Assembly: GCA_020850315.1 (NCBI GenBank)
Contig: JADZEY010000022.1
Coordinates: 1 to 40,907 of the forward strand
Source: Armatimonadota bacterium
GTDB lineage: Bacteria > Bacteroidota > Ignavibacteria > OLB7
Reading direction: 5' to 3'
DNA length: 40,907 nucleotides
The notes under the pieces are model-generated. The model did no database searches and was not told the origin of the DNA. It was given only the letters and a program-made list of their open reading frames with translations. The translations under genes and the position numbers were made by a program. This document shows positions 5,143 to 28,687 of this stretch, piece by piece. The first letter of the stretch is position 1, and the number at the start of each line of letters is the position of its first letter.

Positions 5143-5623
5143 GTGACGCAGTCTCCAAAAAATCATACGTGGACGAAAGGTTAGTTTAACAAGCAGCCGT
5201 ACAGAAAGAATTGCCGGTTTCCCCCAACGCAGGCAGCAGGAATGCGCCGGATGACAGGGAGCAAGAAAGAGAGGTTGAATGGGTGCAGCGATTTTTTTTG
5301 AGGAGGATTTTTTCATCTCATCTCAAGCAAGAAAACCCCCTCTCTTTCTTCCCTCTGTGCTCTCTGTGCCTCTGTGGTTCATTCTCTTCTTGGTGGTGAA
5401 GAGGGGAAGAACCACAGAGGCACAGAGGACACAGAGAGGGAAGAAGAGAGGGGCGGAGTCTGATTTTTTTGATTGTTCCCCCCCGATTTATAGCAATTCA
5501 GAAGAAGGGAAAACCGTTGCCTATCCCCGCAAAGTTGACGAAGTTGGTGACGGGTGGAAAGATTGCCGAACCGCAACTCCATTTCCCTTTCAATCTATTC
5601 TTTCACACTATCTACTTCTGCCT
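5143..5623. other. Divergent intergenic region with a long inverted repeat
   Basis: About 480 bp between two divergent genes, so promoters for both should be here, though none is obvious. Its centre is the long inverted repeat described at 5336-5453. The frame of the downstream protease is open through this region, but the sequence has no coding character. Confidence 0.6.
5336..5453. repeat. Long imperfect inverted repeat with the CACAGAGGCACAGAGG motif
   Basis: The left arm (5336-5380) ends CTGTGCCTCTGTGGTTC; the right arm (5409-5453) starts GAACCACAGAGGCACAGAGG. The arms match over about 45 bp with a few mismatches, around a short centre that can itself pair (TTCTCTTC with GAAGAGG). Sequences like this are known as interspersed repeats in many bacterial genomes. 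Confidence 0.85.
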
Positions 5624-8600
5624 ATGCAACGCCTTTTGCTCCTTCCGTTGTTCCTGTTGTTGGGGATTGCGTATCTGGCCAATGCCCAGCAACGTCCGCA
5701 GTTTCCACCTGCGGCCCAAGCCACCCCCGAACGGGAATCGCACTACCGACCCAGGGTGGTGATCTTGAAGCTGAAAGCGAGCGTTCCGAACCGCCGCGAC
5801 GCGCTGTTGTTTGGTGTTCCGGCCATTGATGCTCTGCTTCAGCAAGCTGATATCAGGCAGCGGCGGCCACTCTATCCCATGGCTCCGTACTCCGCAATGG
5901 AGTTGTTCTCGGCAAACTCACTCCGGTTCGACAAAACCTATGTGATTAGCTACGCCAACCCGATTGACCCACGCACGGTTGCCAACCAACTACGCGAAAC
6001 TGGACTGGTGGAATATGCCGCCCCCTACCGTGCCTTCCGCATTGCAAAAACACCCAACGACCCACGGTTAGCCGAGCAGTACTGGGTGAAGCAATCGGAA
6101 GCGGAAGCTGCGTGGGAGATCACCACTGGCGACACCAGTATTGCCATTGGAATTATTGACAGCGGGGTGGAATGGAGCCACCAAGACCTGCGCGATAACG
6201 TTGCAGTCAACTGGGGTGAAACCGGAACCGACGGCAGCGGAAAGGAAAAACAAACCAACGGCATTGATGACGACGGGAACGGATATGCTGATGATTTCTA
6301 CGGCTGGGATTTTATTGGAAACCTAACTGAGCAGGAGTTTCTGGACAGCGCGTTCAAGCCGGATAACAACCCCGAACCGCAGCCAGCACCAAAACAGATC
6401 CCCCACGGAACGCTTGTTGCCGGGTGCGCTTCGGCGGTGACAAACAACGACCGTGGGGTTGCCGGCGCTGGATATCACACCCGTTTAATTCTCACCAAGT
6501 GTGCTCCCGATTCTTCTGGCGCGATGCTCTACGACGTGTACGATGCCATGCGCTACGCCGTGGATCGTGGCGCACGGATTCTGAACCTAAGCTGGGGTGC
6601 TGCGGAATGGGAATTAGCCCCCGGAGAATTGCCACTGATAGAAGAAGCAATCGCCTACGCCCGTAGCAACAACGTCCTGGTGGTTGCAAGCGCGGGGAAC
6701 GACGGGCTGTTTCTTGGGCGCAATCCGTTCTACCCGGCGGGCCTTCCCGGCGTGTTGTCGGTGGGTGCTTCTAATGCCAACAACAATGCAGCAGGGTTCA
6801 GCAATTATGGGGCGGGGGTGACGCTGTTTGCTGCGGGGCAAGCAATACTTTCAACATCCAGCGGCAACAGCTATCAGCCAGCAAACGGGACATCGTTTGC
6901 CGCGCCAATTGTTAGCGGCGCGGCGGCGTTGGTGATGGCCTTGCATCCCGATTGGACCCCCGACCAAATTCGGATGCAGCTTCGCGTCACCGGCGATACC
7001 TTGCAACTACCACACCCCTACACCTACCGCCGGTTAAATATGCGGCGGGCATTGGAGCTTAACCGTGACCTAACCGCCGCAACCGGAACGCTCCCCGGAA
7101 TTGCCCTAACCAGCTACACCCTGCATGGAAACGCCAGCGACACACTCCGCTCAGCAAGCGACAGAGTGAAGGTTCGGCTATCGCTCACCAACTGGTTGGC
7201 ACCGGGGAAGAATATCCAGATTGCTCCGTGGGGGGAATCCATGCTGCTGGCCGATCCGGTGGCGATTCAAACAATCGGAACCAAGGAAGGACAGCAGATA
7301 GAGGTTGTGGCGCGGCTGAATCCTGATAGATCCCTGTTCAGCGAAGGGAAATCATTGCTGATCCTTCAGCTATCGAACGGCGAAGGCTACCGTGATGTCA
7401 TCGCTATTCCGATTGAGGTTGATCTTCCTGGGCTCCGCACGCAATCGGTGAACCAAGAAACGGAGGGGAACACCTCCTTCGCTGTTAGCGTTGCAACCCC
7501 GTCGCGCACCGAAGCCTGGGTGTTGGGATATGCACAGCGTGGCCCGAACGATTGGTTCTACAGCGCGACCCGCACCACCGATGGCCAGACGTGGGAGCCA
7601 TTTGCACGAATTCCCGGAACCGAGAAACACACTATTCGCGCAATCAGTGCTGTGGATTCCAACAATGCTGTTGTGGCGGGATATGGCCGGCCTGATGGTG
7701 AGTTGGAGTCGTTTGTCTTGCGGACCAGCAACGGCGGGAAAGCATGGGAACAAGCAACGATTACGGCAGTAGCCGACGAGCCAACCCGCATCTGGATGTT
7801 TGATAAAAAAGAGGGGATCGTCTGCGGGAAAAGCAAACCCGGCGCAGGCTCCGGAATTGGCCGCACCTCCGACGGCGGCGCAACATGGAGCCCGGTAGAG
7901 CTTCCCGACCGTTTGCCCCAAATTGAGGATGGCATCATGGCCACCATTGGCAACACCATCTATCTCTCACGAATCGGGCGCGACCCCGCGTCGCAGCCAA
8001 CTCTGACCCGTATCTATCGTTCCGATAACCGAGGCCAAACATGGCGCGTTGTTGATACCCTTCCGCAAGCAGCCGAGATCACCAGCATGGCATTTGCAAC
8101 GCCGGAGCAGGGGATGATGCAATTACTGAGTAGGAGCGGCGGCGGCAATCAAGCAAACCAACTGCAAGCCACCACCGATGGAGGGGGAACATGGATCCCA
8201 CGCGGTAACGGAATCCCAAGCGGCTACCGTCCCACGCAGTTGGCAGCCATGTCGGGGCGGATATACTTGGCGGCATCCGACCACACTCTTGAATCCACTG
8301 GTGGGCTGTTTGGCAGCCGGACTGTGGGGGCATCGTGGGAGCAGATACCTGTTCCGGCAGGACTCAATTTTTTCGACATCGGCTACGGGGCGCAAATGGC
8401 TGGTGGGGGCGATGGTGAGGGGAACACGTTGTGGCTGGCCCAATACAGCTTGTACGGCTACCGTGAAGCGAAGGTGTCATCGGCTCCAATTCAGGAAGCC
8501 ACCAGCATCTCAGGATTGGCAACAGTGGCCAACATGAGCGTTGCCCCGAACCCAGCAGATAGAACTACCACACTACAATTTCAGCTTCGCCGCGCGGCCA

Positions 8601-9333: not shown

Positions 9334-9382
9334 AAAGGTGCTGGAATCGGCAGCGTACTTGCTGCTTGTTTCCAGCACCTTT
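9334..9382. other. Hairpin upstream of crcB
   Basis: A perfect 13-bp stem (9334-9346 with 9370-9382, AAAGGTGCTGGAA) encloses a second stem (GCAGC 9350-9354 with GCTGC 9361-9365). It lies about 70 nt upstream of the crcB start on the minus strand. It could be a leader structure of crcB or a plus-strand terminator (TTTATTCATTT follows). Confidence 0.7.
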
Positions 9383-10082
9383 ATTCATTTGCCGTGCAAG
9401 TGGTGTTGCCGTGCGGTTGTGTGTTCATAGCATCGGCGTGCAGGGTGGTGTTGCTGCCGTATAGCCGATTCCCTCTCTTTCGTTAGGGTTTCTCTCTCTC
9501 CCTGTCTTTTTGTGGCGATGCTTGTGGTGTTAGCATCGCGCCTGCGTGGTGGCACAGGTGAACAGCACGGGATGTTGTTGGGGGAACGGGGCTGAGTTCA
9601 AAGGGCTTATCACTTGTCTCTGCTCTCTCTATCAGCCATCCAGCCCTGGGTGAATCTATGATGTTGTTAATCGAATTGGCGGAAGGTGCACCTCTCTCTC
9701 TCTTTTCATGCAATGCCTTCCTTCATTTGGGAAACTGCTGTGCTCTCTCATCGTTCGCAGCTTCACGTTGCTGGCTCTCTTGCCAGCGTGGTAGCGGGTG
9801 ATTCTCTCTCTTTAATCATTCCCGCTTTTGCACTCTCGCTTCCTCTCAAATATTCCCCTCTCGTGTGGTGTCGGCATGCCCTACGGTGGTGATGCCGCTT
9901 CGTTGCGCGTGGTGTTAAGAACGGCGGCAAATCTACAGTAGCAGTGTCCCGAAAACGTACTCAAAGACTTATAGCTCAGGGGATGGAGTTAGAGTGATTT
10001 TGTCGTTTTTTAAATTTAATCAGCGTTTTTCAGTCTCTATTTAGATTTTTTCGGAAGGCATTCTGGGTTTCATTGCAAAACG

Positions 10083-19522: not shown

Positions 19523-19587
19523 ATCCTGTCTCCGTTGCTATTTCGTGTGATAAAATTTGGTTGCGACCCCGTTCTCTCTCTCTCTCT

Positions 19588-20103
19588 CTACCCTTGCTGG
19601 CTTCGGTTGACGGTCACGAAGTTGAACAGCGTTGCCCCTTGCGACCGGAAGGTGTTCATCACCTGCTCAATCCGCCCGTAGCGCACCCGCTTGTCGGCAT
19701 CAATCATGAATTTGATTTTGGGATTGGTGCGGCGTGTTTGCAGCACCAAATTTGCCAGCGTCACGGTGTCGCGTACGGTCACTTGGGCGTTGTTTGCTTC
19801 GGCGGGGTCCACCCCTTGTGCGGTGTAGATCGCCTTGCGGTCTTTCTCGCTGATGACGGCAAAGTACGTCAGCGTATCCCCTTTCTCATCAATTCCGATC
19901 TTCACAAGGGCGATTCCCCGTTCCGGCAGCTTTGCTGTGTCGGGGGAGGCCACGGGCCGCTTGATTTGGAATTTCTGTTCGCTCTCGGCTTCCGATTTGA
20001 ACTTTGCGGTGAACATGAAGAAGGTCAGCAGCAGGAACGCTACGTCAACCAGCGGTGTCATGTCCAGCTTGAAGCCGATCCGTTTTGGTTTATGTGCTCC
20101 CAT
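19588..20103 (-). CDS. ExbD/TolR-type protein (ExbD1)
   Basis: 171 aa. A short tail (MGAHKPKRIGFKLD), then the membrane helix with Asp20 (DMTPLVDVAFLLLTFFMF), then a periplasmic domain (GIALVKIGIDEKGDTLTYFAV ... FMIDADKRVRYGRIEQVMNTFRSQG), which contains the typical D-K-x-x-Y-G segment. It follows exbB by 34 bp. The two exbD copies presumably act as a heterodimer. Confidence 0.93.
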   Translation of the reverse strand: MGAHKPKRIGFKLDMTPLVDVAFLLLTFFMFTAKFKSEAESEQKFQIKRPVASPDTAKLPERGIALVKIGIDEKGDTLTYFAVISEKDRKAIYTAQGVDPAEANNAQVTVRDTVTLANLVLQTRRTNPKIKFMIDADKRVRYGRIEQVMNTFRSQGATLFNFVTVNRSQQG

Positions 20104-28637: not shown

Positions 28638-28687
28638 GCAGCAAGCCGCAAGAATAGGGTGTTGTTCCGTTCTTGCCAGCTTGCTGC
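28638..28687. terminator. Hairpin between convergent genes
   Basis: GCAGCAAGC (28638-28646) pairs with 28679-28687, and GCAAGAA (28648-28654) with 28670-28676, separated by a small bulge; the loop contains GGTGTTGTT. It lies between the convergent desaturase and DinB genes. There is no T run, so bidirectional termination is likely but unproven. Confidence 0.65.

Follow-up and report, generated by a model that had tools for sequence, protein, structure and literature searches.

We propose that a field of small hairpins between an OmpA-family gene and crcB is the gene of a structured noncoding RNA of ~585 nt, RNA1 (9334–9920, minus strand), which would show repeated loops to a partner. The hairpins, the recurrence of their loops and the conservation of the field are observations, and we infer transcription; the proposal as a whole has, in our estimate, an even chance of being right. 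Transcription would proceed from the minus strand, beginning at a promoter near 9928–9955 and ending at a hairpin at 9382–9334. Two kinds of loop, (A)ACACCAC and GAGAGAG, would be carried by small stems of unrelated sequence. Function would reside in these recurring loops, which would serve as a platform or decoy with many binding sites for one or two loop-reading partners, most likely an RNA-binding protein; a common partner and a decoy action are presumed. The CACCAC loop recurs in a second candidate RNA of the same genus, RNA2, and in a third, RNA3, which is found across the class.

The window, i.e., the whole stretch of 40,907 nucleotides that was analysed, is a single contig from a genome of 4.24 Mb. 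The field occurs as a single copy in that genome, which rules out a multi-copy or mobile element. Read along the minus strand, the OmpA-family gene comes first, followed by its terminator hairpin (10118–10083), a promoter-like block (9958–9928), the hairpin field, and crcB (9265–8885; Pfam CRCB, E = 9.6e-29). A sister species in the same genus, a Chlorobiota MAG (JAEUSP010000065.1), likewise has crcB downstream of the field on the same strand, and its copy of the terminator hairpin is identical. The promoter-like block, ACGTTTTCGGGACACTGCTACTGTAGATTTG, has 30 of 36 aligned bases the same in the sister species, in an upstream region that is otherwise poorly conserved. Bacteroidota promoters have an established −7 pattern, TAnnTTTG, and the sequence TAGATTTG at 9935–9928 of the minus strand fits it. 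In intergenic regions of the host genome the pattern occurs 13 times in sense and 6 times in antisense orientation, which lends weak support to the putative promoter; a sigma-70 promoter scan gave none. At its other end the field closes with a terminator-like hairpin (9334–9382) that has a 13-bp perfect outer stem, AAAGGTGCTGGAA/TTCCAGCACCTTT, and a short U run. This hairpin lies 68 nt before the crcB start, and all 36 bases of its stem are identical in the sister species.

Ten stem-loops had been predicted between crcB and the OmpA gene, and all ten are present, at the positions given for them and with the arms assigned to them. Along the minus strand, hairpin A (9872–9897) has the stem CGGCAT and CACCAC within its loop. 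It is followed by hairpin B (9793–9826; stems AGCGGG and TGATT), with a GAGAGAG loop and an inner pair that is U-A here and G-C in the sister species, and by hairpin C (9770–9787; stem GCTGGC), whose AAGAGA loop has lost its GAGA in the sister species. Hairpin D (9731–9764; stem GAAGCTGC/GCAGTTTC) carries a GAGAGAG loop that is longer in the sister species. Hairpin E (9681–9721) has the stems GGAAGG and TGCA and a GAGAGAGAG loop; its inner stem changes from TGCA/TGCA to TTGC/GCAA in the sister species, that is, to another register, and the GA loop is kept. Next come hairpin G (9541–9558; stem CCTGTG/CGCAGG), with CCACCAC within its loop, and hairpin H (9515–9539), with a perfect 8-bp stem, GCGATGCT, and the loop AACACCACA, both conserved and the stem 9 bp long in the sister species. 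The weakest of the set is hairpin I (9485–9503; 4-bp stem AGGG/CCCT, GAGAGAGA loop), which is absent from the consensus fold. Hairpin J (9437–9459) has the stem GCAG/CTGC inside CGGC/GCCG and the loop AACACCAC, and hairpin K (9396–9409; stem GCAA/TTGC, loop CACCAC) is identical in the two species. The CACCAC and GAGAGAG cores are unpaired in the folded RNA1. A further hairpin at 28638–28687, previously said to have a related loop, does exist, with GGTGTTGTT in the loop, but it sits where the desaturase (+) and DinB (−) genes converge and has the look of a 3′-end hairpin shared by the two, unrelated to the field.

The original prediction that the stems share no sequence while the loop motifs recur is correct. 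On the plus strand of the field, GTGGTG occurs seven times (starts at 9400, 9445, 9524, 9546, 9865, 9886, and 9909) and CTCTCT has 13 starts, against shuffled means of 0.47 and 0.84, respectively, and none of 500 dinucleotide shuffles reaches the observed counts. Neither motif is found on the minus strand of the field; all repeats share one orientation. Folding beats the shuffles on both strands. Non-overlapping perfect stems of at least 4 bp number 14 against 9.6 (3/200 shuffles), those of at least 6 bp number 3 against 0.75 (11/200), and those of at least 5 bp show no significant excess, so that the excess of hairpins, taken alone, is moderate. The minus strand of the field folds with a z of −5.2 when the end hairpin is included; with the 9334–9382 hairpin removed, z is −3.4 for the minus strand (0/200 shuffles) and −2.4 for the plus strand (4/200). 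In the sister species the same strand gives −3.0 to −3.6, with the antisense strand folding about equally well, and the consensus-fold z of the two strands differs little (−2.8 vs. −2.2). In a test against shuffled flanks, hairpin loops contain GAGAGA 6 times against 2.4 (1/60), and 10 times against 2.9 in the sister species (0/60). The excess is more modest for CACCAC, with 4 against 2.4 (6/60) here and 4 against 1.9 (4/60) in the sister species. CACCAC is not enriched in the hairpin loops of the genome generally (14 vs. 11 expected), and it follows that RNA1, RNA2, and RNA3 stand out.

Among 61 genomes searched, only that of the sister species contains a full homologue of the field, a single copy that is 79% identical and also precedes crcB. 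In the two-species alignment, the CACCAC columns are identical at 40 of 40 positions, compared with 211 of 332 other unpaired columns (p = 9e-8), a figure that is not circular since the motif columns were chosen independently of the consensus fold. The columns of local stems are identical at 139 of 146 positions, a figure that is partly circular because the stems were chosen by consensus folding. For the GAGAGAG columns the count is 47 of 64, and the length of the GA tracts differs between the species. Thus, CACCAC bears out the suggestion that conservation rests with the loops, and the CT/GA loops do so only partly. The consensus fold contains two compensatory pairs; covariation within RNA1 is thin because there are just two homologues. 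RNA1 was not found outside the genus, and among the family's five genomes its 5′ domain has no match beyond that genus. A coding sequence was rejected, as there is no long conserved ORF and the indels are mostly not multiples of three. Other BLAST matches of the field (G000:C130, G001:C59, and G051:C177) fall in coding-looking stretches and are probably due to chance. Three options had been offered for the field. Folding, the conservation of stems and CACCAC, the non-triplet indels, and the one-copy locus favour a structured RNA, while conservation speaks against a degenerate repeat field; the third option, a protein-binding array, is taken up below.

A pattern search within the family for CACCAC followed by GAGAGAG yielded RNA2 and RNA3; since the pattern contained both motifs, that each candidate carries them once is partly by construction. 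RNA2 is an intergenic candidate RNA of ~700 nt (G000:C82:~5590–6308; L056) with CACCAC and GAGAGAG, and it ends in a strong intrinsic terminator, GCTGGGAAGCCTTGTGCAGCAAGGGCTTCCCAGCATTTTTTT. Its ACACCAC-type loops sit on unrelated stems of 6–9 bp, such as agcggc-ACACCACCA-gccgct, gccggg-AACCACCAC-cccggc, and tggccggca-ACACCAC-tgccggcca. Between this copy and that of the sister species (G001:C56, minus strand; L040:1215–1830), the ends are conserved and the middle is very divergent. RNA3, of ~80 nt (G000:C128:47356–47445; L092/L036), is a well-supported candidate for a structured RNA. Its class consensus is near AAAGUGAGAUGCCCCUUGACG-UCACCACU-CGUCAAGGGGCACUCCCCUUCUCACCUUUUC-ACCACCACAAC-GAAAGGAG. 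It is present, usually once, in 57 of 391 genomes of the class, and all of its matches in a sample of the phylum come from the same class. The neighbouring genes vary. Both CACCAC loops are invariant in 22 aligned sequences, and in helix P2 nine of 12 pairs are changed on both sides. For the whole structure, 11 pairs have double changes against 4.7 in shuffled alignments (0/500), and 28 double-changed cells are seen against 6 shuffled and 0–4 in slid controls. The RNA3 loci have no match in Rfam 15. Two near-threshold matches to the Acido-Lenti-1 RNA (RF01687) lie near RNA3, at L036:2068–2112 (+) and 1887–1931 (−). The same loop thus occurs on other stems in RNA2, and strong covariation is seen in the separate RNA3 rather than inside RNA1. 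RNA1 is not a member of RNA3: the R3 covariance model, whose E-values are rough, gives best matches in the window at chance level and none in the field. RNA1 and RNA3 are therefore linked by the CACCAC loop only; this link is suggestive, and it is not independent of the motif-based search.

The main rival to a free-standing RNA1 is that the field is a long 5′ leader of crcB that acts in cis on the minus strand, its end hairpin serving as a conditional terminator and its hairpins stabilising or regulating the message. We consider this possible, but doubtful. The field shares strand and order with crcB in both species, and the short U run of the end hairpin makes read-through plausible. Neither the crcB fluoride riboswitch (RF01734) nor any other Rfam family has a gathering match in the window, and the field shows only sub-threshold chance matches. 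That result can be read for a crcB leader, but Rfam yielded no known leader of such a kind. Moreover, RNA2 has a like array with a strong terminator of its own and RNA3 has variable neighbours, which argues that the related loop RNAs are free-standing.

The field might instead be an ordinary untranslated region in a lineage whose untranslated RNA abounds in GA tracts and C/A runs; the GA tracts would then be products of slippage and the hairpins mostly incidental. In the co-directional intergenic regions of a 444-kb sample of the genome, the sense strands contain many AGAGA and CAACA/ACACA and few of the complementary sequences, a general strand bias; along with this, the differing GA tract lengths and the counts of perfect stems, just moderately over the shuffles, are what such an origin would give. 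However, CACCAC and the stems are conserved far beyond the rest, folding exceeds the shuffles in both species, and the motif density of the field is far above that of the other intergenic regions sampled. A purely compositional origin is thus the less likely one, and we regard an ordinary untranslated region as improbable. An array of protein-binding sites or cruciforms acting at the level of DNA, to which the repeated cores shared by the palindromes might point, is very improbable given that all repeats have one strand orientation, that the folded RNA leaves the cores unpaired, and that hairpins of the related-looking RNA3 covary while the loop stays fixed.

As for the strand, the original prediction had read the field on the plus strand, with GUGGUG and CUCUCU loops. 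The plus strand, too, folds better than shuffled sequence, but with a weaker z, and this reading is probably wrong; we give a plus-strand RNA very little credence. The flanking genes are both on the minus strand, as is the conserved TAGATTTG block, and the motifs have a sense bias in the genome at large. In co-directional intergenic regions (444-kb genome sample, field left out), GAGAGAG occurs 41 times in sense against 6 in antisense and is nearly absent from genes, and CACCAC occurs 30 times against 13; these genome statistics come from samples of ~440 kb, with intergenic regions delimited by a simple home-made gene caller. For these reasons the sense strand is most likely the minus strand, and the RNA would run from ~9920 to 9334, with loops that read (A)ACACCAC and GAGAGAG. 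A TC microsatellite of 17 nt (19573–19589 of the window), near the start of a minus-strand gene, also reads GAGAGAG in the sense direction.

The closest parallels to the proposed RNA1 are CsrB/CsrC and RsmX/Y/Z, noncoding RNAs in which one short motif, GGA, is repeated in single-stranded stretches or in hairpin loops whose stems differ (PMC7652899). In RNA1, similarly, stems of unrelated sequence carry the same loop motif, and the best-supported reading is that this RNA may work as those RNAs do, by presenting loops. It does not belong to their family: its loops carry CACCAC or GAGAGAG, not GGA, and CsrA (PF02599) has no match in its own genome, a search in which three control genomes were positive. 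In Bacteroides, of a related phylum, the RRM protein RbpB binds single-stranded parts of many sRNAs, among which the FopS sRNAs form a family of 14 copies with a common motif of 41 nt (PMC11697453). The host genome encodes two RRM proteins (G000:C135 and G000:C12). These might be partners of RNA1, but they remain mere candidates because RbpB prefers AU-rich RNA (PMC11697453); RNA1 also differs from FopS in being single-copy with a C/A motif. Structured RNA candidates have been described from Chlorobi, namely Chlorobi-1 and Chlorobi-RRM, the latter named for RRM genes, along with a motif named for crcB (Weinberg 2010, PMC2864571); neither the window nor the RNA3 loci match any of the three in Rfam. 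Our search for literature on small RNAs in Kapabacteria found nothing.

It is tempting to propose that RNA1, RNA2, and RNA3 form one undescribed post-transcriptional system of this class, whose conserved partner would read CACCAC loops. RNA3 would be the ancestral two-loop ligand, RNA1 and RNA2 would be genus-specific multi-loop decoys, and the whole would be a CsrA-free counterpart of Csr/Rsm. We offer this as speculation that is unlikely to hold. If true, a bacterial lineage without CsrA would have built a loop-array decoy RNA around a different recognition sequence, and the invariant loops and covarying stems of RNA3 across the class would offer a handle on the partner.
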